A DNA stretch of 32,873 bases from a virus. Each line of letters opens with the position of its first letter. Position 1 is the first letter of the stretch. Both the position numbers and the translations under genes were made by a program. Positions 2,593-32,873 of the stretch are shown here, one piece after another. Where the stretch lies: positions 1-32,873 of IMG/VR virus record IMGVR_UViG_3300032242_001164; one strand, written 5' to 3'. The notes below the pieces were generated by a model. That model was not told the DNA's origin, ran no database searches, and was given only the letters and a program-made list of their open reading frames with translations.

Positions 2593-2779
2593 AGTCTTTC
2601 AGTTTTCGCACGAGGTCAGCGATTTCACGTTGAGCGGTTCGCAGACCCCGGATAACTCCGCTCAACTCTTTGTAGTGATCGTAGGTATTAGCTCCACCAT
2701 CACACAAAACTTGTACTACGCTTCTGACTTCCTCTTCCAGTTTGCCGTTGAGGACTTCAAAGATTTTTGTTTCCATCAT
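2579..2779 (-). CDS. Small coiled-coil protein between portal and co-chaperonin (65-66 aa)
   Basis: The protein is almost entirely helical and charged (FEVLNGKLEEEVRSVVQVL; YKELSGVIRGLRTAQREIAD), ending in KLKDYDDE. It has two tandem ATGs, 2779 and 2776. AAGGAG, located in the end of the portal gene, is spaced better from the second (6 nt). The gene overlaps the portal stop and the co-chaperonin start, so it is translationally coupled on both sides. A small coiled-coil protein here could be an assembly factor, but I do not recognise the family. Confidence 0.7.
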   Translation of the reverse strand: MMETKIFEVLNGKLEEEVRSVVQVLCDGGANTYDHYKELSGVIRGLRTAQREIADLVRKLKDYDDE

Positions 2780-5235
2780 TCACTCCTTGTTATTTGCTGC
2801 GCTTTAGCAGCAGCTACTTGGTCGGCCTGGTTGAGTTTTTGTTGATGCGCTTGTTGCGACTGCATCAACTCCATCTGATGACGTTGAACTTGCTGTTGCA
2901 TCTCCTGATTGTGACGAGCAGCAATCATTTCAGGAGTTTCGCCGTTCTTCATCATCATCTCTTGCTGCTTCATCTGCAGCTCTTGCGCCTTCAGTTGCAA
3001 TTCGCCTTGCACCTTTTGCGCCTTGATCTGGGTTTCCTGTTGCTTGATCTGCAGCTCAGCTTGTTGCATCTGCACAATAGGATCTTGCAGTTGCTGCTGG
3101 GCTTGCTGTTGCGCAGCCTGTCCTTTGTTCAGCTGAGTCAGTTGCGTAGCAGCCTGGGCCACAAGCTTGGACAGCTGAACTTCCACTTCCTTGGACAGCT
3201 CGGCATTTGGCTCGGGCAGTGTGGCGCCCAGCTGTTGTTGAACGCCGTTGCGATACTGGAATGCCACGTGCTCGGCAATGTGCGCCATGATGGCCGCTTG
3301 CATTTGCTGAGCCATAGGGTTTTGGCCAATCTGGCCCATGACCTTGGGGTCTTGCATCATCGAAGTGTGAGTTGCGATGTGTGCGTCGTGGTCTTGGTAG
3401 ATAAAAGCCTTTTGTGGCTTGCCGGTCAAGAAGCCCATGTTCTCGCTGATCGGGTCGTGCGGCAGTTGGTCGTCATCAACCGGTACCAACTTGTCGGCGT
3501 TCTTGATGCCCAGCACTTCAATCATCTGGCGGTGCAGTTGAGGCAAGTTGTAAATCTGCGGAGCGCCCTGGGCCAACTGAATGACCGCCTGGTACTGCAT
3601 GATCCGCTGCGCCATGGTCGAGCTGTTGGGATCGGACACGGGGATTACGTCCACCATGTCGTAATCTTTGCGCTTGGCCTTGCGTGAACCTTCGGCTGGG
3701 TTGTATGAGTACTCGCCCGGGGTGTGGTCACGGATGATGTCGCGCAGCAGCTTGAATTCTTGCTTCATCGAGAAGTGAACTCGTGCCTGCACAGCCGACA
3801 TGTTCTTCAGTTGGCGCTCAAGCAAAGCCAACGTGGTCCCGACGGGTGCGTTGGCGCTCATGTCGCTGATGTTCATGTCAGCAATCGAGCCCAGGCGGCG
3901 GCCTTCTTCGGTGATCTGGTTGAGCAGACCCATCAGGACTTGGCTTGGCTCCTTATAGGGGAGCATCATGATGTTGTCGCGCACCGTACCGGAAGGCACG
4001 TCCACATCCCTGAATTCGCCCGGGGCGATGGGTGTATCGTCTCCCTTAACGCGCAAACCTCGGGCTTTCAACCCGCCTGGCAGGTTAGAAAGCGTGCCGG
4101 CATCCACCAATTGGCGAATAATGCTGGTTCCAGCGCGCGCATAACCACCAATCAGGTGGATCAGGCCCAAACCATAGGCGCCAAACCCGGGGATATAGGT
4201 GTACTGGACAAAATGTTCGCGTTTTACCTTGCGGTCGTCGCTTTCTTCCCAGTTTCTACGTACAGCCAGCACTTCATTCGTGCCGCGGTCAATCGTAATG
4301 ACGTAGGGCAGGGCAATACCATCTTCATCTTCGTAGCCGGGCAGGTCATAGTCGATGTGGACTTCCAAAATCTGGTAGCGGTCGTCATCGGTCAGGCTGT
4401 AACCCTGGTCTTCGGCCTTCTTTTTTTCTACATCGGTGTGAATGGTGACCGGCTCACCCAAATCGACGTCGCGGTAGAAGCCCGAAACCTGTAATTTCTT
4501 GATTTCGTTCTTGGTTTTGCGCATTACATGGGTAACACGCTCGGCATTGAACAAACTGGAGGCGCCGTACGGGATGATGATGTCTTCGGCGGGGATAAAT
4601 GTGGCGATCTGGCGGTCGTAACCCGGGTCAAAGTAGATTTTCTTGAACGCAGCGCCGGCCAGACCCAAGGAATACAAGAGCCGCTCATGCTCTGGGCGGT
4701 ATTCGGGCATCGCTTCTGTCAATTGGTAGTTCATGTCATCACGAACTCGCTCGGCAGCGTCTTCTTTGAGCTTGTCAATCGCTCCGATGATCTCAGTTTT
4801 AACTGGACCAGCGGCGGGGAACGTCTCTAAAATCGTCTCACTCTGAAAACGGATGGCAGCTTCGGTCAGAATTGTGGAATACACACCACATGCGCCCATC
4901 CAAGGCTCGGTGCGCTCCTCATATTTCATGCCCAGGACTTCCAAGCCCTTGACATACATCTCAACCCAGTCTTTGCGGCTGTTAATATCCGCGTCCACCA
5001 TCTCGACAATGTCGCTGGCCACCTTTTGGAGCTCGCCTGGAGACATTTCTTCGGCCAAGTTGCCGTCAAAATCGCCTTCTTCGACGTCTGGCATTAAGTC
5101 AATCATCATGCCGTCGATCCCAATCGTTACATCGTCGGGATTTTCGATTTGAATTTCAATTCCGGGGCCTTCTTCCTGCGGCAAAAGACTGTCCAAACCC
5201 ATGGGTGCCTGGCTGATTGATTGCTCGATGCTCAT
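2776..5235 (-). CDS. Portal protein, P22-like (819 aa)
   Basis: The portal is the dodecameric ring at the capsid vertex through which DNA is packaged and ejected. The N-terminal 75 residues are acidic. The core has signatures I recognise from P22-type portals of environmental podoviruses: RKDWVEMYVKGLEVLGMKYE near 85-105, EPWMGACGVYSTILTEAAIR, and a conserved central part (GLGLIHLIGGYARAG, LSNLPGGLKARG, MSANAPVGTTLALLE). From about residue 660 to the end it becomes a Gln-rich coiled coil (QQAQQQLQDPIVQMQQAELQ and similar), which probably forms the helical barrel reaching into the capsid. P22 portal is 725 aa, so the length is reasonable. AAGGA precedes the ATG and the large terminase ends 8 nt upstream. 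Confidence 0.9.
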   Translation of the reverse strand: MSIEQSISQAPMGLDSLLPQEEGPGIEIQIENPDDVTIGIDGMMIDLMPDVEEGDFDGNLAEEMSPGELQKVASDIVEMVDADINSRKDWVEMYVKGLEVLGMKYEERTEPWMGACGVYSTILTEAAIRFQSETILETFPAAGPVKTEIIGAIDKLKEDAAERVRDDMNYQLTEAMPEYRPEHERLLYSLGLAGAAFKKIYFDPGYDRQIATFIPAEDIIIPYGASSLFNAERVTHVMRKTKNEIKKLQVSGFYRDVDLGEPVTIHTDVEKKKAEDQGYSLTDDDRYQILEVHIDYDLPGYEDEDGIALPYVITIDRGTNEVLAVRRNWEESDDRKVKREHFVQYTYIPGFGAYGLGLIHLIGGYARAGTSIIRQLVDAGTLSNLPGGLKARGLRVKGDDTPIAPGEFRDVDVPSGTVRDNIMMLPYKEPSQVLMGLLNQITEEGRRLGSIADMNISDMSANAPVGTTLALLERQLKNMSAVQARVHFSMKQEFKLLRDIIRDHTPGEYSYNPAEGSRKAKRKDYDMVDVIPVSDPNSSTMAQRIMQYQAVIQLAQGAPQIYNLPQLHRQMIEVLGIKNADKLVPVDDDQLPHDPISENMGFLTGKPQKAFIYQDHDAHIATHTSMMQDPKVMGQIGQNPMAQQMQAAIMAHIAEHVAFQYRNGVQQQLGATLPEPNAELSKEVEVQLSKLVAQAATQLTQLNKGQAAQQQAQQQLQDPIVQMQQAELQIKQQETQIKAQKVQGELQLKAQELQMKQQEMMMKNGETPEMIAARHNQEMQQQVQRHQMELMQSQQAHQQKLNQADQVAAAKAQQITRSE

Positions 5236-5243
5236 ATTGGTCC

Positions 5244-6743
5244 TTAATAGTAAGAGGCTTTACGGCGAAAATTTGGCAGCTCATCCCGTTCATCGGATTC
5301 TAGACGAAGGAACCCTCCCTTGCGGAAACGGATCAATGCCTGGGTGCTTGAGTCCACCAAGTCATCGTGATCGGAATTGGGAAAAGCCGCCATCTCTTCC
5401 ATCAGTTCATCTGCCCACCGCGTCTCCGGCGCCCAGACTTTACCGCTGGCAAACAAATCGGAGACTGAGTTAATTCGGACCATCTTATCATTGCCGCGGC
5501 TTGGTGTAAATTCGCTCACCGGGATGCCCATGGATCTCAACTCAAAGATCAACGGCGCACCCGAGGCCTTGGCTTCCACAATAAACGCGTCAGGCTCCCA
5601 ATCTTTGTAGTGGTTGTACGCCTTCTCCTTGAGTTCCGGAAATTCCATCCTCTTCTTGAACGCGTCCAGCAAAATCACGTGGGGGTCGTTTTCGTTCTCG
5701 TTCATGTAGAACACACCCCAGGTCGTACAGGCCGAATAGTCGGACCGCTCGCTTTTGGTAAACGCCGTATCCCAGGACTGGATCACAAACGCGCACTTGG
5801 GTGGATCGGGGTTTTTCCAAATCTTCCACCACTCCCTCTTTACAATCGCCCCTTCTTCAGAGGTCGGTGTTTGTTGGTACTGGGCGTTCCACTTACTGGC
5901 CGGCAGTTCTAACTGAAGGGCCTGCAGTTCATCAAGGCTCCAGAACTCTGGCCACAGGGGATTTCCGCTCGGCAAGATTGCAGGAAACTCAATGACGTCC
6001 CAGCTTTCCCCATCTTTGTCCACCATCGACTGAAGGATCCGGCCCGTCAGATCTCTTTTGGACCAGCGTGTCATCACAACAACAATCGCACCACCAGGCT
6101 GCAGACGCTGGCGGGGCCCAGAGGTGTACCACTCGTAGACTTGGTCAAACACTTCAGAGTTCGACTGGGCCAGTTTGGCTTCTTGTTCAGAGTGTGGGTC
6201 GTCGATGATCAACAGATCGGCGCCCTTACCCGTGACCGTACCTCCGACACCAATCGCAAAATATTCTCCGTTCGCATTCGTGGCCCAACGGCCCGCAGCT
6301 TTGGAGTCGGCCCTCAAGGACACATTGGGGAAAATCTCGGCGTAAGCTTCACTGTCTACCAAGTTCCTGACCTTACGGCCAAAGCCCACCGCCAGTTCAG
6401 AGGTATTGGACGACTGGATAATTTTCTTGTTGGGGTACTTCCCCAAAAACCAACTCGGAAGAAGAAACGAAGCAAACTCAGACTTCGTGTGCCGGGGTGG
6501 CATATTGATGATCAACCTCTTCAACTTCCCGCTGGCGATCTCTTCAAACTTTTTGGCCATCACCTTATGGTGGCGCCCGTCAATAAACCCAGGCCACATC
6601 GCTTTGACAAACTTAGCAAACGACGCCTGCGCCTCCTCCCTCTTCTTCGCCTTCTTCAGTTCAAACAAATCCTCAAACACCTGCTCCTGCACATTGACCG
6701 GCAGCTTAGAGATCCCCTGAACAATCGCATCAATATTCTTCAT
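5244..6743 (-). CDS. terL: Terminase large subunit (TerL, 499 aa)
   Basis: This is the packaging motor ATPase and nuclease. The ATPase domain has a Walker A motif MPPRHTKSE at about residues 81-89, Walker B LLIIDD at 177-182, and VVVMTRWSKRD near 221-231. The RuvC-like nuclease domain shows IQSWDTAFTK (Asp near 325), DAFIVEAKASG (Glu near 390) and NSDHDDLVDSSTQAL (Asp cluster near 458-464), so all catalytic positions appear intact. The length is typical. ATG 6743 overlaps the upstream stop as TGATG; GTG 6746 would add one codon. Translation is therefore coupled to the LexA-type protein gene. The portal follows after 8 nt in the usual terminase-portal order. Confidence 0.95.
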   Translation of the reverse strand: MKNIDAIVQGISKLPVNVQEQVFEDLFELKKAKKREEAQASFAKFVKAMWPGFIDGRHHKVMAKKFEEIASGKLKRLIINMPPRHTKSEFASFLLPSWFLGKYPNKKIIQSSNTSELAVGFGRKVRNLVDSEAYAEIFPNVSLRADSKAAGRWATNANGEYFAIGVGGTVTGKGADLLIIDDPHSEQEAKLAQSNSEVFDQVYEWYTSGPRQRLQPGGAIVVVMTRWSKRDLTGRILQSMVDKDGESWDVIEFPAILPSGNPLWPEFWSLDELQALQLELPASKWNAQYQQTPTSEEGAIVKREWWKIWKNPDPPKCAFVIQSWDTAFTKSERSDYSACTTWGVFYMNENENDPHVILLDAFKKRMEFPELKEKAYNHYKDWEPDAFIVEAKASGAPLIFELRSMGIPVSEFTPSRGNDKMVRINSVSDLFASGKVWAPETRWADELMEEMAAFPNSDHDDLVDSSTQALIRFRKGGFLRLESDERDELPNFRRKASYY

Positions 6744-7009
6744 CACTCAATTTTTCTAAAATTTATATACACAGGCCTCACAGACCGGGCCGTGTTCGGG
6801 ATCCTCTTACACACCCCCAACACACACAGCTTCTTGAGCACCCTGTTCACATTCCCCCTCCCCCGGTCCCCCGTCAACATCATGATGTCATCAATCGACG
6901 GCCCATAACCAAACTTCTTCCAGAACTCGTCAACACACAAAAATATCATCTTCTGCTTCGGCGTCATCAATCTCTCCAGCCCACTGGCCACATCCCTTAC
7001 TCGCTCCAT
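6743..7009 (-). CDS. LexA-type winged-helix DNA-binding protein (88 aa)
   Basis: Residues 14-80 follow the LexA DNA-binding domain. MTPKQKMIFLCVDEFW is helix 1, KFGYGPSIDDIMMLTG matches GYSPSIREIADALG, GNVNRVLKKLCVLGVCKR matches the recognition helix and the start of the wing, and VRPVYINF closes the wing. There is no autoproteolytic or dimerisation domain, so it is not a full repressor. It lies between the small and large terminase genes and overlaps both neighbours (13 nt and about 1 nt). It could regulate the late genes, compete at SOS boxes, or help DNA recognition during packaging; none of these can be separated from sequence. Confidence 0.7.
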   Translation of the reverse strand: MERVRDVASGLERLMTPKQKMIFLCVDEFWKKFGYGPSIDDIMMLTGDRGRGNVNRVLKKLCVLGVCKRIPNTARSVRPVYINFRKIE

Positions 7010-24439: not shown

Positions 24440-24729
24440 TGTACCGCAACCGCAAGCTATTGGACGCTGCCAGAGAGCTGCCTTGCCAGCATTGTGGCGT
24501 GTCCGATGGCACGGTGGTGGCTGCGCACTCCAACCAGCTGAGGGACGGCAAAGGCCGTGGCCTGAAAGCACATGACTACCGCATAGCAGCATTGTGTTTT
24601 ACGTGCCACGCCGAGCTGGACCAAGGCTCCAAGATGACCAAGCAAGAGCGCATCGAGATGTGGGAGGAGGCCCACCGCAAAACGATAGGCCTCTTCTTTG
24701 AAAACGGTGTTATTTCTCTGCAGCCCTGA
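24439..24729 (+). CDS. DUF1364 (YbcO-like) HNH-type nuclease (96 aa)
   Basis: The Cys/His layout CQHCGVSDGTVVAAHSNQLR, GKGRGLKAHDYRIAALCFTC then HAELDQG matches DUF1364, the family of the E. coli prophage endonuclease YbcO (C..C...T..aH.n....kG.g.K..d...~~~C..CH..lD). Two Cys pairs bind zinc and the AHSN/CHAELD residues form the HNH-like active site. It is expected to be a structure- or junction-specific nuclease. ATG 24439 overlaps the upstream stop; GTG 24436 is an alternative. The last 20 nt overlap the end of the opposing polyvalent gene. Confidence 0.75.
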   Translation: MYRNRKLLDAARELPCQHCGVSDGTVVAAHSNQLRDGKGRGLKAHDYRIAALCFTCHAELDQGSKMTKQERIEMWEEAHRKTIGLFFENGVISLQP

Positions 24730-27700
24730 ACCGGTCGTTAAAGTTCTTCATCATTCGGGCCTTCTGTTCGTCAATCCGTTTGATGCGGGCTTTAATGGCA
24801 TCGGTCTGTTCTTTTTCCAACAGTTCCTTCTTGGACTTATTGAGCTTGGAGATTTCATTCTCCAAGTTGTTGGCCACTGAAATCAACTTTGTCTCTGGGT
24901 TATCACGCTTGTACTCGTTGGTACTGACGTGGTCCTGTTTCATGCGTTTGATTTCATTCTCCAACTTGGCCAACTCATTGACATGCTGGTAGAACTGGTC
25001 GGTGATTGCCACGGGCGTGCCAATCTCTCCGTACGCCTTGCCAACCAATGGCACCTTGTACGAAGGGATGGGCTCATCGCCAAACAAGGCGCCAACAAAC
25101 CTGCCGGCACGAATCACTTCACGTGCAGCACCGCCTGCATACTGACCCGCCAAGTAATCAATGTCGTCACCGGTAGGGCTGAACTTGCCGATGCCGTGCT
25201 CACCGCCGCCACTGATGTAGTTGATGCCGTACGCAATCGCCTTGCCCAGGAATGACGCATTCTCACGCGAACGTGTCCAGCCTGGGGATGGTTGGCTTGG
25301 CCGATCTTCGCGGTGGATAGGGCGACCAAAGGCATCACGGTTGGTAGACAAGACTCCTACGATGGGGTCAAAGATCGTGGGTGCAATGGTTTGAGCAAAG
25401 TCGCTTGAGCCCAAGGGGTTGAGCGTATCAAACACAATGCCCGTAATCTGAGACAGCCGCTTGCCAGTATGCTCAAAACCAGAGAACGCATACTCACCCA
25501 GCACGCGGCCAATTGCTGGCAATGCAGCAAAGCCTGGGGGCATTGGGAAAGACAAGTACTTCTTGGTGCCAAAGATCGGGATGATGAGGTTCTTGTTCTT
25601 GATGTAGTCAGGGATGTCGTCATCCTCAAACCCACCGCCCATCAACGCAAAGGCCTGGAGCACGCCAAACAGCATGCCGCCCTTGATGATCTTCATGCCG
25701 AGCTTGGACAGGGTGCGCTCGCCTTTGTCGTTCAGCTCGGTCAAGGTTTCATAGTTACGATACTGACCTTGCACGCGGGCATTGAAGAACGCCCAGAACG
25801 CATTCAGGTTAGAAGTCCACGAGCCCTTGCGGTCAAAGTTAACTGTGATCTCTTTGGCCAAACGAGCTGCTTGCATCTCGCTCATGCCATTCTCAACCGC
25901 GGTTCTAAAGGCTGACAGGCGCACTGCGTTTTCAGCAGAGTCGTTAAAGTCTGACATCCAGCGCAAGGAAATGTCCAGCCCCTTGCGGATGCCTTTATTT
26001 TCCAACCGCTTCATCTCGCGGGCCAGGATGTCGTCACCTTCTTTGTTCTTGCGGAACTGCTCGCTGTAGCCAACTTGCCCGCCAACATCGGCAAACAGTT
26101 TGTACCACTCCATCCAGCGTTTCATCTCTGGGGTGGTGGCTTCCTTGCCGCGCAACGAACGGTAGATCGCACGCACTGCAGGCACCGAGTTGGCCACCAC
26201 TTCTTTGCGCTTGTCGGCAATAGGCGTGTTGGACAAGTTGACGCCCGCTTCGCCCACATCTCGCGCAAAGTTCCACATGCCGAATACCAAGTTGTACTGG
26301 GTATTCATGGATGCCATCTGCCGCGTTGCCTCAGCCAAGATGCTCAAGCCCTCAGACACGCTGTTGGCGTCCAGGTTCTTCAAGGCTGTGACCATGTGCA
26401 TAGCAACTGGATCGCCGGCATTGAAGATGATGTAGCGGTCTTTGCCGTTGATCCTGATGGGGAACACGTTCTTGGAATTGCGCAAGGCTGGGTTAATTTT
26501 GTAAACAAGCTTTCCAGTTTGCTTATCAAACGTAGCCGACTTGGGCTCCATCATGATGTTGTCGCGGTCTTCCTTAGTCAGGCCGAGACTGATCAGCTCT
26601 GCTTCCAGTTTTTTGGTGCTCTTGATGGCATCAGGCGAGATGGGCAGCCAGAACTCAGGGTTGGGGGCAATGATGGCCAGGCCATACATAGCGCGGCCAA
26701 CGCGGGCTTTTTCACCACGGACAATCGCCTTCTCCGCCTGCAAGATGACGTTGCCAATGATGTTATCCACGGTCTTCAAAGAGCCAGCAGACGCCTTGCT
26801 GAAGGCGCCCTTGGATGCAAACCCTTGGCCCAGCCCTGTGCCCACGCTTACGAAGTCCAGCTCATCCTCATCACGCTTGAGGGGCACGTAGTCTGGCATG
26901 TTCTCACGCCAGCTTTCAATGACCTCTTTGGTTTCCTGGCCAGTCTCAATCAAATGATCTTGCGTGTCTTTGATGATGGTGTCCACGCGATCAGCCAGCT
27001 TCTGCAGCTTGGCCAAGTGCTCGGGGTTTTTCTCCAACTCGCTCAAATACTTCTGGGCGTCTTCAGTAAAGATGCCAGATCCACCGTCAGCCATGCCGCC
27101 GCGCTCAGCGTTAATTCTGTTGCGGGTTTCAGCGTGACGGTTGTGCAAATAAGTATCCAGCTCTTCACGGCTGATCTTGAACTTGATCATCTCCTCCAGC
27201 AACGGGATGACGTGGGCTTTCACCATCGCATCTTTTTGCTCGCGGACCCGACCGTAGTACAAGGTTTCCATCAAGCGCGGATCATGGATGTCCGGTATCT
27301 CGCCCATCTCGCGGCGGATAGACTCGACCACTTTCTTGGTGTCAACGTGTTTATCCTGCAAGCGGCGCTGCCAGTCGCTGATGGTGTTGATCTCTGGCGA
27401 TGTCCAAGTGGACAACGGAGCCTCCTTGCCACGGTAGTTCAAGCGCGTGTTCTGGTTGTTCAGCAGCACCTTTTCGCTGGTAACGTAGTTCACCAGAGCT
27501 GCGTTGCCGATGCGCTTTTCCTTGCCCGACATGACTTCGTTAAAGGCCTTGTGGACGGCTGACTTGTTGTCAAACCCGAACAGGTTCTTCACGCTCTCGT
27601 ACAAGCGCTTGGCGCCCAGGACAAAGCGGTCCCAGCCCGAGCCCAGCTTACGTGCCATCAACGACTCAGCGTTGACCGCCCAGTACTCTGAGGGGTTCAT

Positions 27701-30700
27701 GTACTGGTAGTAATCGTAGGATGGCAAAGCATCCATGGCGATCTCGTAAGTCTCAAGCGTTGGGTGGTCGTAGAACGCCATCAGCTTGTCAAAGAACGCC
27801 TTACCCCGGGCAGTCTTATCCGACTTGATCTTGCGCTCAAGCTGCTTGTGCCATTCCTCGATGACCGCAACCGTAGCCTCTTCAGACATCATCTGCTCAA
27901 GGCTGTGGACCAGCTCGTGACGGATGGTGCTTGGGTCTTCCACGCCCGTTGTGCCCTTGTACAAGTACACAAAACGTTCTGCGGGACTGAATTGACCAGC
28001 GGCACTCAACGCGCCTGGCTGCTTACGCACGGACAGCTTCAGGCCTTCCAGTACAAATGGGTACTTGGAATGCACATCACGGATCACCTCGTAGACCGCA
28101 TCGCTCAAATTGCCTTCGTCCCACTGCTTGGTCGCATCAGCAAAGAAGTTACCAGCAGACCTGCGCTCGGGCTTTTCTTTGGCAATCGCAGCCTTGAGGC
28201 CATTGGCCACTTCATCCAGCTCAGTGATCTTGGCCTGCTCTGTCAGACCAGCTTCACCCTTGATAAACTTGCGCACGATGGCTGCCCGGCTTTGACGAGC
28301 AGACTGGAAGCGGCGGATTAAGTCTTCCCTGTCCACGTCCGAAGCCATGTAGGGGTTGAGCACCTTCTGGTTTTGGTCGGGCTCGATGTTGGCCAACGGT
28401 GGCTGGAAGGCAGCGCGTGCCTCGTCCTTGTTGGTCAATGCAACCAGTGACTCACCGCGGTCAGACAACAAATACTTGACTGCTTCGCGGACATCGTTCT
28501 GGCCGTAGACGGTAGCCGTCATCGTTGGGCCGCTCTTGTAGAAGTCGCCGGTAAGGTTGGTCAGGTCTTTGTCCAAGAAGAACGTACCGCCCTCGCGCTT
28601 GGCGCTGGAGGTGGTGAACTTGTACTGAGTGCCGCCAGAGAAGATGATCTTCAAAACGTTATCTGGAGTACCCACAATGGAGCGGGGGCCAAACTTGTCG
28701 AAGAAAGCCATCACAGCTTCGGCGTTGTTGAGCTTGACTGGAGCGTTCTTTTGCTCTTTCTCAAAGTCAAACGTGCGTGGCATCAGGACGCCCTGGGCAG
28801 TGGTGCCATCGTCCTTGGTATAGGTCATGATCTGACCCATGTTGTTGACCGCAGCGTAGCCCGCCAGGATGTTGCCAGTAACCATCCAGCGCTTCTCACG
28901 GCGGACGGTGGCACCCTTGTCAAACAACTCCATCAAAGGAATGCGGTCGTACCGTTCAGTTTCCTGATTGAACCAAGGCACCTCGTCTTCTTGCTTCAAG
29001 GTGTAGGCGCTGCCAATCTGGGAGAACGTCAGGGTGATGGACTTGGCATCGCCGTTGGCCAGAGCCAGCGTCATCTTGAGGTCTGAACCGGCCACTGGGT
29101 TCTTGGTCTTGCCCTTGGCTTCGATGTTGGTAACTACACCGTAGACGAACACGCCGTTGGTGTTCTTGATCGAAACAGGTGTGCCCACCGGAAACGTCTG
29201 ACCCACGGTTTTGGCGTGGTTAAACTGAGCGTTCAGCTGGCTCTTAAAGTTTTCAATCTTGACTGGATCGGGTTCTTTGGCCGACTCCATGGCCGACACT
29301 TGCTCTTTGCCAAAATTAGCTGTGCGCTCACGCAGCGCAGTCAACATTTGATTGGAAGCTTGGACAGTGCTCAGGCCTTTGAGGTTGTCTTTGATCTGCT
29401 CTTTGACGTCGTCCTGTGAGTAAGGCTTGACGGTGCGCTTAACGTCCACGCGCTCCATCATGGCCGGCTTGGCAAACACAGACTGTGAGCCAGATTCGTT
29501 TTGCTTGTCTTCAGTGATCTGCTTGGACTCAATAGTCTTGGCGTCCAGGTCTACCGCCTTGGACTCCAGCTTGTTGGTGCCCATGCTGTCTTCGCGCTCA
29601 ATCAAATCTTTGTAACGCTCGACCAAATCTTTGTAGATTTCTTCTTGCTGTTTGATTGGCAAGATCGGAATGTAGCCAGTTACCTTGCGGATGTCTTCTT
29701 CACTGGCTTCGCTGGGGTCATCGCTCAGGTCAATGACTTTTTTACCGCCCAAAGCTTGATACACCTCTGGGTTGTCGCGCAAGAACTCGGTGACCACTTG
29801 GCCGCCGTAGTCGTTCATGAAGTCAACGGCACCCTCAGCGGACACAGCAGACTTGCGTGAGCCTGTAGTGTTGGCGTTCAGCGATGCCATCTTCTTGAGC
29901 AGCACGGCGGCAGGGCGCATCTCAGCAGGGATGTCAGCCATCATCTGCGAGTAGGCAGGTGGAATCACCTGGCCGGTACGGTGAACACGGCCCAGCATCT
30001 GCATGTGGGTGTCAATGTTCTTCTCCGGCTGGATGATGATCATGTGACGCTTGCGCTTATCGTCAAACTTGCTGGACGCGTGCAATGACAAGCCAGTCGA
30101 GCCGGCTTGGTTCAAGATCATGACATCGGATGTACCGTTGTTGAAATTCTTCACCGCCTGCACACGTTTAGCAATGCTGGAGTTACGCGATGCCAACAAT
30201 GGTTTGCCGGTGGAATAGTTCACGGTGACCGTGCGGCCAGTGATCTCTTCGGTCTTATAGCCTGCCTTGTTCAGCTCGGCATGCAAGTAGTCGATAGGAC
30301 TGATGGGAGCAGAACCAAAGCCTGCGCCCTCAATGAATGCTTTGACGTCATTGAATTGTTGAACCAAGCCAGGGCCCAGATCAGCATCTGTCAGGCGGTA
30401 CTCATCCACCCTGCCGCCAGGGGACTTGATCTTGATGACGCGTTGTTTTTCCAAGTAACGCAGGTACATGTCTTTAAAAGACAGATCCACTTTGTCCCCG
30501 GCAACCAAGCCCATCTCATCGGCGTAATCTTTGAGGAACGAGCCCATGGTGTTGGACACGGTCATGACCACCTTCTCGCCAGCCTTCAGGCGCTCGATGG
30601 CGTGGTCGATAGAGCTTTGCACCTTGAGTGACAACAACATCTGGTCAATCAAGTTGTGCATGATCGAGCCAAAGTTGGCACTGGCCACCTGAGTTTTCTC

Positions 30701-32873
30701 GGCGGGGCCACCAGCAATCGCTGCACCACGTTTGTCCAGCTGCTTCTTGAGATCTTTGACAGCCACTTCTTTGGCGCGTGAGAAAGCCAAAATGTCGCGC
30801 ATGGACGAAGCCATGTTCTCAGCAGTCTGCTTGTCCACTTTCGTCTCTGTGGTGTCGTATGACACACCCGCAAAGGTACGTTCGCGGCGGATGTACTGCC
30901 CAGCCTGGGCCAGCATGTTCGCCACGGTTTGCTGCATAGGAATGCCGCCGTTCTTGATAGCGTCAGCCAGCTCATTCAAGTTTTTGACGGCCAGCTTCAT
31001 ATCAGTGCTGGAGTACAGGTCCATCACGTCAGGCTTTTTGGCGTACGTGGCTGACGAGAAGAATGTGCCGTACGCGTTTTGAACCAGGTTACGGACAAAG
31101 GCAGCCCGCCCAGTGGCCAAGCTCTGTCCTTCTTGGGCTTTCTCGCGTTGCTCTTTGGTACGAGCCTGGGTTTCACCCGCGCCACCAGCGTTGTGGCTCT
31201 CGTCAAAGATCATGTAGTTGCCGGCGCCAAACTGTTTAATCAACCGACGGCGTTCTGTATCTTTGCCCTTGACGGTTTGCAGCTGGTTGTACGTGGTGAA
31301 GATGACCTTGTAGTCGCCCAAACTTTCAGAATCTTGCATGCGCTTGAAAACCGCATCCAATTTGGCATCTTTTTGTGGCGCCTTGAGAGTCAAGTTGTTT
31401 TCAACAATTTCGCCATTCACATCACGCAGCAACGTGTATGGAATTTTTTCGTCATTGTTGGTGATCAAGATCTTGGGATTGGCAGTATCCAAACCCAGCT
31501 CTGAGGTCATTCCGATGTCGTCCAAGTCTCGGATCATGTCCGAGTACAAGTTGGGTTTTTCGGTGACGAAGATGGGCACCTTGCCGTTGACCAAGGCATA
31601 GCGGATCATGGCAGCCACAACGCGGCCTTTACCCACGCCGGTCTGGTCACCAATGATGAAGCCCTTGCCTGCTTCGGCGTTTCGGATAGAAAGCGCCAAG
31701 GCATCGACTTGTTCGGCAGAGAACAGCTCACGCACAGTCTCTGGATCCATTTCCAGGGCGGTAGCTACATACTCATCAATGGAGCCAACAGCCGCCTCAA
31801 GCGTTGCCAGAGCGTTGTTGATTGCCTCGGCCATGGCTTTAGGCACCAGCGTACCGACCGAGTTGGCGTTGGAAAATGGGGCATAGCCCACCTGGCCTTC
31901 GGTTTCTTGCTCTTGCCCAGCCCGGTTAGTTAAGCCAGATCCGACACGTTCTCCTGAGACAACGCTAACTCCACCCAGCTTTGCAGGTCCACGCTCTTCA
32001 GCAGCTCGCTCACCCCGCTTTGCAGTTTCACTTGTGCCGGCCACTGGTTGTTGTCCGCCACGCTCAGTTGCGTTCTCAGATCCAGGTTGTGCGTTACCAG
32101 CGCGTCCCCCAGCTGGTTCACGTCGTCCACCAGTGGCAGGTTCATTGCCCTGCACGCTTGTTCCGCCGCCTTCAGTGGTTCCTCTTCCTGCAGTGCCAGG
32201 TCCGTTACCCTGTACGCCAGCGCCGAGATCCACGTTTTCTCGTCCAGCGGTCCCGGCTTCACCAACACCGCGGTCAGTTCTGCTGGTGCCGCGATTTTCT
32301 CCGGATACCATGCGATCATTTAATTTCTCCTTGAGTTGGTCGTAAGACTTAATGACTTGTGGCAAGTCTGCGGCAGGCAAGTTACGTTGCGATTGGCCTT
32401 TGCCATCAATGACGATGACATCCACAGGGTAGGAAGCGCCCTGCTTGGCATACATGTTTCCGGCCACCGTGAAGTGGTCCACTACGTTGTAGTCTTGGTA
32501 CAGGTTGTAGTAGAACTCGCGCTTGGCCTTGCTGCGATAGCCTTCGCGGCGAGCGTCTTCTGTAGTCTCGTTCACACCGCCCACAATCAACACAGCTTTG
32601 CCGTCTGACTGCATTCTGGACAAGGCGGTGTAGGAGATAGCGTGATCAATCTCACGAGTCTTCTTACCACCCACTTCAACTTCTTCGCCAATAGCTCCAA
32701 ATGGGGGATTTGCAATGACAACTTCTACCAAGTCAGGCTGGAAGTTAATTGCATTTTTATTGACAACTTCAGCCCCGTCCATGATGCGCTTGAGCATGTC
32801 AAAGCGGTCTTGGTTCAGCTCATTGGCCACCACGTTGGATGGGTTGGCGGCAATCAACAGCATACCGTTACCA
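24710..32873 (-). CDS. Giant DarB-like polyvalent protein: N6 methyltransferase, helicase, HExxH peptidase, LPD38-like (over 2720 aa, 5' end outside)
   Basis: The frame is open to the window edge. Its first visible residues GNGMLLIAANP are methyltransferase motif I, so the true start is outside and the ATG at 32863 is internal. Numbering from that Met: NPPFG (52-56) is motif IV; residues 185-325 are a Gly/Glu/Arg/Thr-rich linker; GDQTGVGKGR (405-414), DESH (554-557), SSATYAKK (603-610) and QMLGRVHRTGQ (955-965) are helicase motifs of the Strawberry-notch type. STIRHELVHSLEQMM near 1649 is an HExxH metallopeptidase site. About 2180-2550 (LVFGMWNFARDVGEAG; WAFFNARVQGQYRNYE) resembles LPD38, and the C-terminus is a basic coiled coil. 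Such proteins (P1 DarB, polyvalent proteins) are injected with DNA and protect it. Confidence 0.85.
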   Translation of the reverse strand, partial: GNGMLLIAANPSNVVANELNQDRFDMLKRIMDGAEVVNKNAINFQPDLVEVVIANPPFGAIGEEVEVGGKKTREIDHAISYTALSRMQSDGKAVLIVGGVNETTEDARREGYRSKAKREFYYNLYQDYNVVDHFTVAGNMYAKQGASYPVDVIVIDGKGQSQRNLPAADLPQVIKSYDQLKEKLNDRMVSGENRGTSRTDRGVGEAGTAGRENVDLGAGVQGNGPGTAGRGTTEGGGTSVQGNEPATGGRREPAGGRAGNAQPGSENATERGGQQPVAGTSETAKRGERAAEERGPAKLGGVSVVSGERVGSGLTNRAGQEQETEGQVGYAPFSNANSVGTLVPKAMAEAINNALATLEAAVGSIDEYVATALEMDPETVRELFSAEQVDALALSIRNAEAGKGFIIGDQTGVGKGRVVAAMIRYALVNGKVPIFVTEKPNLYSDMIRDLDDIGMTSELGLDTANPKILITNNDEKIPYTLLRDVNGEIVENNLTLKAPQKDAKLDAVFKRMQDSESLGDYKVIFTTYNQLQTVKGKDTERRRLIKQFGAGNYMIFDESHNAGGAGETQARTKEQREKAQEGQSLATGRAAFVRNLVQNAYGTFFSSATYAKKPDVMDLYSSTDMKLAVKNLNELADAIKNGGIPMQQTVANMLAQAGQYIRRERTFAGVSYDTTETKVDKQTAENMASSMRDILAFSRAKEVAVKDLKKQLDKRGAAIAGGPAEKTQVASANFGSIMHNLIDQMLLSLKVQSSIDHAIERLKAGEKVVMTVSNTMGSFLKDYADEMGLVAGDKVDLSFKDMYLRYLEKQRVIKIKSPGGRVDEYRLTDADLGPGLVQQFNDVKAFIEGAGFGSAPISPIDYLHAELNKAGYKTEEITGRTVTVNYSTGKPLLASRNSSIAKRVQAVKNFNNGTSDVMILNQAGSTGLSLHASSKFDDKRKRHMIIIQPEKNIDTHMQMLGRVHRTGQVIPPAYSQMMADIPAEMRPAAVLLKKMASLNANTTGSRKSAVSAEGAVDFMNDYGGQVVTEFLRDNPEVYQALGGKKVIDLSDDPSEASEEDIRKVTGYIPILPIKQQEEIYKDLVERYKDLIEREDSMGTNKLESKAVDLDAKTIESKQITEDKQNESGSQSVFAKPAMMERVDVKRTVKPYSQDDVKEQIKDNLKGLSTVQASNQMLTALRERTANFGKEQVSAMESAKEPDPVKIENFKSQLNAQFNHAKTVGQTFPVGTPVSIKNTNGVFVYGVVTNIEAKGKTKNPVAGSDLKMTLALANGDAKSITLTFSQIGSAYTLKQEDEVPWFNQETERYDRIPLMELFDKGATVRREKRWMVTGNILAGYAAVNNMGQIMTYTKDDGTTAQGVLMPRTFDFEKEQKNAPVKLNNAEAVMAFFDKFGPRSIVGTPDNVLKIIFSGGTQYKFTTSSAKREGGTFFLDKDLTNLTGDFYKSGPTMTATVYGQNDVREAVKYLLSDRGESLVALTNKDEARAAFQPPLANIEPDQNQKVLNPYMASDVDREDLIRRFQSARQSRAAIVRKFIKGEAGLTEQAKITELDEVANGLKAAIAKEKPERRSAGNFFADATKQWDEGNLSDAVYEVIRDVHSKYPFVLEGLKLSVRKQPGALSAAGQFSPAERFVYLYKGTTGVEDPSTIRHELVHSLEQMMSEEATVAVIEEWHKQLERKIKSDKTARGKAFFDKLMAFYDHPTLETYEIAMDALPSYDYYQYMNPSEYWAVNAESLMARKLGSGWDRFVLGAKRLYESVKNLFGFDNKSAVHKAFNEVMSGKEKRIGNAALVNYVTSEKVLLNNQNTRLNYRGKEAPLSTWTSPEINTISDWQRRLQDKHVDTKKVVESIRREMGEIPDIHDPRLMETLYYGRVREQKDAMVKAHVIPLLEEMIKFKISREELDTYLHNRHAETRNRINAERGGMADGGSGIFTEDAQKYLSELEKNPEHLAKLQKLADRVDTIIKDTQDHLIETGQETKEVIESWRENMPDYVPLKRDEDELDFVSVGTGLGQGFASKGAFSKASAGSLKTVDNIIGNVILQAEKAIVRGEKARVGRAMYGLAIIAPNPEFWLPISPDAIKSTKKLEAELISLGLTKEDRDNIMMEPKSATFDKQTGKLVYKINPALRNSKNVFPIRINGKDRYIIFNAGDPVAMHMVTALKNLDANSVSEGLSILAEATRQMASMNTQYNLVFGMWNFARDVGEAGVNLSNTPIADKRKEVVANSVPAVRAIYRSLRGKEATTPEMKRWMEWYKLFADVGGQVGYSEQFRKNKEGDDILAREMKRLENKGIRKGLDISLRWMSDFNDSAENAVRLSAFRTAVENGMSEMQAARLAKEITVNFDRKGSWTSNLNAFWAFFNARVQGQYRNYETLTELNDKGERTLSKLGMKIIKGGMLFGVLQAFALMGGGFEDDDIPDYIKNKNLIIPIFGTKKYLSFPMPPGFAALPAIGRVLGEYAFSGFEHTGKRLSQITGIVFDTLNPLGSSDFAQTIAPTIFDPIVGVLSTNRDAFGRPIHREDRPSQPSPGWTRSRENASFLGKAIAYGINYISGGGEHGIGKFSPTGDDIDYLAGQYAGGAAREVIRAGRFVGALFGDEPIPSYKVPLVGKAYGEIGTPVAITDQFYQHVNELAKLENEIKRMKQDHVSTNEYKRDNPETKLISVANNLENEISKLNKSKKELLEKEQTDAIKARIKRIDEQKARMMKNFNDRFRAAEK
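31930..32319 (-). CDS. Candidate overprinted gene nested in the polyvalent linker (129 aa)
   Basis: This frame starts at ATG 32319 with AAGGAG 7 nt upstream and ends at TAA 31930-31932. It is read in a different frame from the polyvalent gene, across its low-complexity linker (about residues 182-311). The product looks like a normal folded helical protein: MIAWYPEKIAAPAELTAVLV, WISALAYRVTDLALQEEEPL, KAAEQACRAMNLPLVDDVNQ and ELLKSVDLQSWVELALSQEN, with four Trp and ordered hydrophobic spacing. Other antisense or shifted frames in this gene are Cys/Arg/Ser/Pro-rich. Gly codons of the main frame here are often GGA, unlike GGC elsewhere, which could reflect constraint from the second frame. No family is recognised. 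The region is poor in stops in other frames too, so chance remains possible. Confidence 0.4.
   Translation of the reverse strand: MIAWYPEKIAAPAELTAVLVKPGPLDEKTWISALAYRVTDLALQEEEPLKAAEQACRAMNLPLVDDVNQLGDALVTHNLDLRTQLSVADNNQWPAQVKLQSGVSELLKSVDLQSWVELALSQENVSDLA

Follow-up and report, generated by a model that had tools for sequence, protein, structure and literature searches.

A probable overlapping gene in the disordered linker of a phage methyltransferase-helicase polyvalent protein

Out-of-frame open reading frames (ORFs) inside phage DNA methylase genes have been reported in mycobacteriophages, where the ShiLan domain and the Pacc40 gp60 insertion were found to be hidden HNH endonucleases (Arsenault et al., 2025; PMC11855218). 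Methylases are also joined to helicases in the dyad polyvalent proteins of the DarB type of phage P1 (Iyer et al., 2017; PMC5512222), and P1 DarB, the archetype methylase-helicase protein, is a virion head component guarding phage DNA from EcoKI-like type I restriction (PMC5512222). These are the closest described systems to a locus in the IMG/VR virus record IMGVR_UViG_3300032242_001164, a complete record of 32,873 bases referred to here as the window. Within its giant polyvalent protein gene (24710–32872, minus strand), the DNA coding for the linker between a DNA methyltransferase (MTase) and a helicase very probably carries a genuine overlapping gene, called X (31930–32319, minus strand), which would encode an acidic protein of 129 amino acids. 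Comparison with relatives indicates that X has a start of its own and descends together with the enzyme gene, outside which it was not found, and that selection retains the hidden frame in both phages and plasmids from several bacterial phyla.

X begins with an ATG at 32319 and ends with TAA (31930–31932), in the +1 frame of a main ORF for which 2,720 codons is a minimum length, as its 5′ end is lost at the record end (the right end of the window). A Shine-Dalgarno (SD) motif, AAGGAG (32327–32332, minus strand), lies 7 nt before the ATG in the main-frame codons AAG-GAG (Lys-Glu), and the product has four Trp residues, as the first-pass annotation had described. The near-exact coincidence of ORF and linker noted at that stage was borne out by an AlphaFold2 model of the MTase, linker and helicase, in which the predicted local distance difference test (pLDDT) score was below 50 over residues 187–314 (window positions 32314–31931), agreeing with X within a few bases. 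This Gly/Glu/Arg-rich main-frame linker (31931–32314, minus strand), predicted to be disordered, also shows the suggested shift of its glycine codons to GGA (14 of 33, compared with 8 of 192 in the rest of the ORF).

The host gene of X is of the DarB type, with an N6-MTase, a Strawberry-notch SWI2/SNF2-type helicase and LPD38, and it unites an adenine-type MTase, a SWI2/SNF2-like helicase and an LPD domain in one polypeptide. Its MTase part (32315–32872, minus strand), with an NPPFG motif, matches phrog_3820 (E = 1.4e-7) and is a confident AlphaFold2 region, while the Strawberry-notch-type helicase (29576–31675, minus strand) was identified by the Pfam families AAA_34 and Helicase_C_4 (residues 400–684 and 875–1099); LPD38 is also present. 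The MTase and helicase profiles do not reach P1 DarB, which is too distant, and a profile search shows no X in it. With ShiLan and Pacc40 gp60, X shares the layout of a separate out-of-frame ORF in a phage DNA methylase gene, the reading frame of that gene remaining uninterrupted and its product being predicted to be disordered there, and Pacc40 gp60 also has a helicase domain, as does the host gene of X. The first-pass annotation suggested that a small early protein made from the polyvalent mRNA would be a new arrangement, a claim that must be qualified since these hidden HNH ORFs (PMC11855218) offer a partial precedent. The word “overlap” is absent from the full text of the main paper on polyvalent proteins (PMC5512222), and no paper joining “large polyvalent protein” with “overlapping gene” was found in a search of non-subscription literature.

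The evidence for X comes chiefly from its conservation, for which more than 100 relatives were compared in all. Searched with the MTase-linker-helicase protein, viral contigs yielded 61 loci. X is missing from three of them, where the contig starts within the linker or a little upstream of the helicase. All other loci (59 including the window, 45 of them distinct) keep X as an ATG-started +1 ORF of 128–149 codons with AGGA-type SD motifs. A frame broken by stops, or a lost ATG or ribosome binding site, named in the first-pass annotation as evidence that would refute X, was sought and not found in any spanning relative of the clade. The codon-position alignment was built in the main frame and hence could not favor X. 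Pairwise diversity at main-frame positions 1, 2 and 3 was 0.45, 0.38 and 0.31 over X, compared with 0.29, 0.23 and 0.61 in the MTase, 0.28, 0.25 and 0.63 just past the X stop, and 0.25, 0.17 and 0.57 in the helicase. The aligned polyvalent gene (3,082 codons) has only one stretch with a third-position diversity below 0.45, the X region (0.31–0.37, against 0.45–0.72 elsewhere), so that the excess synonymous constraint looked for in the main frame is strong at third positions, lies exactly over X and occurs nowhere else. Codon choice at the SD site is similarly biased, AAGGAG being used in 43 of 43 Lys-Glu pairs at the site, whereas 12.5% of such pairs in the rest of these ORFs use it; in one relative (L026) Lys-Glu has changed to Lys-Gly and an AAAGGA motif persists. 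Distances between X sequences track those of their flanks (Spearman 0.715, reached in 0 of 999 permutations), although these statistics are drawn from relatives that are not independent.

Substitution classes were counted in 12 independent gapless close pairs, giving rates (simple counts, uncorrected for multiple hits) of 0.178 for changes nonsynonymous in the main frame and synonymous in X, 0.084 for those nonsynonymous in both and 0.076 for those synonymous in the main frame and nonsynonymous in X. In close pairs the ratio of nonsynonymous to synonymous substitution (dN/dS) is 0.46–0.47 for X and 1.10 for the main frame given a change in X, while the main-frame ratio in the flanks of such pairs is 0.20 (six flank comparisons without a gapless line-up were left out). 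When the amino acids of X are held fixed, a median of about 9.5 main-frame stops per sequence is expected and none is observed in 45 of 45 sequences; Phe, Trp, Tyr and Cys are likewise absent from the linker, though some would be expected even with stops forbidden. There is thus purifying selection on the second frame beyond any effect of the first, together with a conserved start and ribosome-binding site. These comparisons indicate that X carries the amino-acid constraint and that the main frame is kept open and hydrophilic while its sequence drifts, since it has no stops and none of the four residues, yet a dN/dS of about 1.1. The first-pass annotation had left two alternatives, namely that a gene arose where the host protein tolerates change or that the linker composition results from selection of the second frame. 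The latter fits best, because X appears to be under amino-acid selection with the main frame only kept open and hydrophilic, and the former fits less well.

Overprinted genes of viruses and bacteria (reviewed in PMC8227390; OLGenie, PMC7531306) are like X in their same-strand overlap, separate initiation, orphan product and detectable purifying selection on the second frame. X differs from them generally in being unusually widespread for an overlap in a double-stranded DNA element, and in that the hidden frame is conserved while the frame of the large gene drifts.

The X protein is acidic, with a median isoelectric point (pI) of 4.4 and a net charge of −10 in the clade of the window. AlphaFold2, supplied with an alignment of 42 sequences, gave a mostly helical model with a pLDDT of 88.2 and a predicted template modeling (pTM) score of 0.82, which suggests that the product is globular whereas the same DNA read as linker is predicted to be disordered. 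The invariant residues are Trp, Pro, Asn, Leu and Ala, and no conserved catalytic set of His or Cys was found in X; this pattern suggests a protein that acts by binding and not as an enzyme.

Distant MTase-helicase genes were gathered from viral contigs, GTDB genomes and plasmids, and a quick tree was made of the flanks. It contains a clade of 43 rows (Shimodaira–Hasegawa-like approximate likelihood ratio test 99), including cyanobacterial plasmids and alphaproteobacterial elements, in which X is present throughout. A profile of the window's clade reaches the X of L241, L116 (a cyanobacterium), L246, L253, L254, L242 and others with E-values of 7e-10 to 9e-4 (Z = 1000; best shuffled decoy 0.25), and the iterated profile (best decoy 0.01) adds a contig of Desulfobacteraceae as well as plasmids of Picosynechococcus, of which the cultured strains PCC 7003 and PCC 7117 carry the plasmid form. 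A six-frame search of ~1,070 genomes (alignment A4) recovered X at 11 places, seven of them absent from the alignment; at all 11 it is nested in +1 between MTase and helicase, and no stand-alone X was found in these genomes. tblastn with single X proteins against phages and plasmids gave nothing convincing.

A conserved ORF occupies the corresponding position, in the same frame, in Bacteroides phage BS-TP4, which infects a cultured host, and in its relatives. In BS-TP4 (L101, 10044–10388), L103–L111 and L117 it is a +1 ORF of 104–129 codons with the pattern M..KYY...LT..PG.LTE in the same linker, and its SD is mostly weak or lacking, as expected for Bacteroidota hosts. The locus of L118 (titled Bacillota bacterium, JAMPFD010000007) is near-identical in the tree to the Bacteroidota-type phage contig L107, and its host label may be a binning error. 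The Bacteroidota-phage ORF is possibly a very diverged X, although hhalign gave a probability of 6%, no support for homology. A further, shorter class of nested +1 ORFs of 92–111 codons at this position (L240, L248, L251, L252, L255, L244, L247, L257, L113 and L249) is without the N-terminal AWxP part. Short ORFs of this length in several phages are positional counterparts only, except for L240 and L258; of the ten loci named, only L240 joins the X profile. X was not found in Bacteroidota chromosomal homologues (whose linkers are mostly short), a set of proteobacterial plasmids or an Acinetobacter phage. In Pseudomonas aeruginosa plasmid pIHMA87 (L271, NZ_CP041355), a 167-amino-acid +1 ORF (3302–3805) lies in a continuous Strawberry-notch ORF of 1,698 codons. 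The record lists it as hypothetical protein WP_034080252.1 and starts the large gene downstream of it, so the annotation apparently chose the nested ORF and shortened the host gene; no homology of this ORF to X was detectable.

It is proposed that translation of X begins at its own ATG and SD within the polyvalent mRNA and continues through ~130 codons of the +1 frame, which would give a separate small, acidic, folded protein; from the main frame, the same stretch would yield the disordered and flexible segment that separates MTase from helicase. Selection would hold the amino-acid sequence of X, and the main frame would be held only open and hydrophilic. X would most likely act with the MTase-helicase encoded by the same mRNA, in the role of partner, regulator or chaperone to that anti-restriction enzyme, because it is found only at this site in both phages and plasmids. 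A fuller and more tentative version, to which slightly less than even chances are given, holds that MTase–Strawberry-notch anti-restriction enzymes across several bacterial phyla, whether of phages or of plasmids, have X as an obligatory small subunit or regulator of ancient origin, and that the second frame of the linker DNA is the only place where it is encoded.

Several points limit this reading. In resampling that held the main-frame amino acids constant and drew synonymous codons from the flanks, 52% of draws for the window left the +1 frame open (P = 0.52; the median of 45 homologues was 21%). The linker is nearly without Leu, Ile and Met, so few +1 stops are expected over it, and as the frame often stays open in resampling, the length of the ORF is by itself a weak hint of a gene; what upheld the hint in the first-pass annotation is the relatives, and the significance of X rests on their conservation and not on the window alone. 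Most of the sequences come from metagenomic contigs, the close clade of the window yielded no cultured isolate in this analysis, and the substitution counts given above are uncorrected. A fold search of X in BFVD and PDB gave no match and so no hint of function, and searches of Pfam, PHROGs, NCBIfam, PADLOC-DB and PDB sequences gave nothing credible, with sporadic weak matches in one to three members only. X would most likely be translated by internal initiation on the polyvalent mRNA, and the putative partner role is about as probable as not.

Small acidic inhibitors of host defenses, such as Ocr, are known from phages. X could accordingly be a DNA-mimic-like inhibitor of restriction or of another host defense, its nesting serving co-expression only, and this reading is unlikely but is the strongest of the alternatives. 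X is indeed strongly acidic, small and predicted to be folded, and is encoded with a module of anti-restriction type. However, defense inhibitors are usually patchy and quickly swapped, while X was never seen away from the polyvalent gene in the ~1,070 genomes searched and is kept across phages and plasmids, with no match in PADLOC-DB and no fold match in PDB or BFVD.

Improbable, though less so than the two readings that follow, is an origin or continued activity of X as a homing insertion of the ShiLan type, domesticated or not, in which a mobile out-of-frame ORF entered the linker and the host frame was kept open. The shared layout (PMC11855218) is in keeping with it, as is the length of X-positive linkers (~144–240 amino acids by the boundaries used here), mostly longer than that of X-negative Bacteroidota chromosomal linkers (mostly 82–108). 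The mycobacteriophage elements, however, are HNH endonucleases with a GTG start, no detectable SD and a patchy distribution suggesting homing (PMC11855218). X has a strong SD and an ATG, sits exactly between two enzyme domains and evolves with its host gene; no HNH or zinc-binding motif and no conserved His or Cys pair was seen in it, and Pfam, NCBIfam and PHROGs gave no endonuclease match. Its distribution is clade-wide and not disjunct, with no X-negative member in the clade of 43, which speaks against present activity, and an HNH or homing element was rejected on the absent motif and absent patchiness.

It is very improbable that X lacks a start of its own and arises solely by +1 frameshifting at the end of the MTase, as an MTase-X fusion: X does directly follow the MTase in +1, but the ATG and well-placed SD are kept in all spanning relatives and codon choice is bent toward the SD, though no search aimed at slippery sequences was made. 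A chance ORF without function, left open by the Gly/Glu/Arg composition, is plausible for the window taken singly, and one antisense frame too is open in 60% of relatives, but this reading has a negligible probability given the codon-position and substitution-class tests (third-position conservation, dN/dS of ~0.46 and the SD codon bias of 43/43), the W, P and N residues invariant across deep divergence in a conserved protein, and the confident fold.

Fused MTase-helicase genes without X exist, so X is not required for the fusion, and the flank tree requires at least two changes of X presence, whether gains or losses. X may have originated by de novo overprinting of the linker or in an inserted ORF-bearing segment that was later fixed; both are possible.

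The remainder of the window is that of a tailed phage, with a terminase (5244–6746, minus strand) and a portal (2776–5235, minus strand). Opposite the polyvalent gene, the plus strand contains many long antisense ORFs of up to 495 codons (24929–32345). The two that lie over X (31981–32334 and 32034–32345, plus strand) were considered as candidate genes and rejected, as the antisense frames are broken in 40–91% of relatives.

The comparison suggests that X, for which an orphan fold is confidently predicted, has been conserved in phages as well as plasmids from Cyanobacteria, Alphaproteobacteria and Thermodesulfobacteriota, while Bacteroidota phages have a counterpart in position; X becomes a candidate component of a system of anti-restriction type. 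Annotation pipelines systematically drop fully nested genes on the same strand. In giant phage proteins, disordered linkers can serve as coding space for a second protein, and low complexity in a linker can be a by-product of a gene hidden in another frame. A general scan for dips of third-position diversity in the disordered linkers of polyvalent proteins thereby becomes testable. If X is truly a subunit of the enzyme, one stretch of DNA would yield both a flexible tether and a protein partner acting on the tethered domains.

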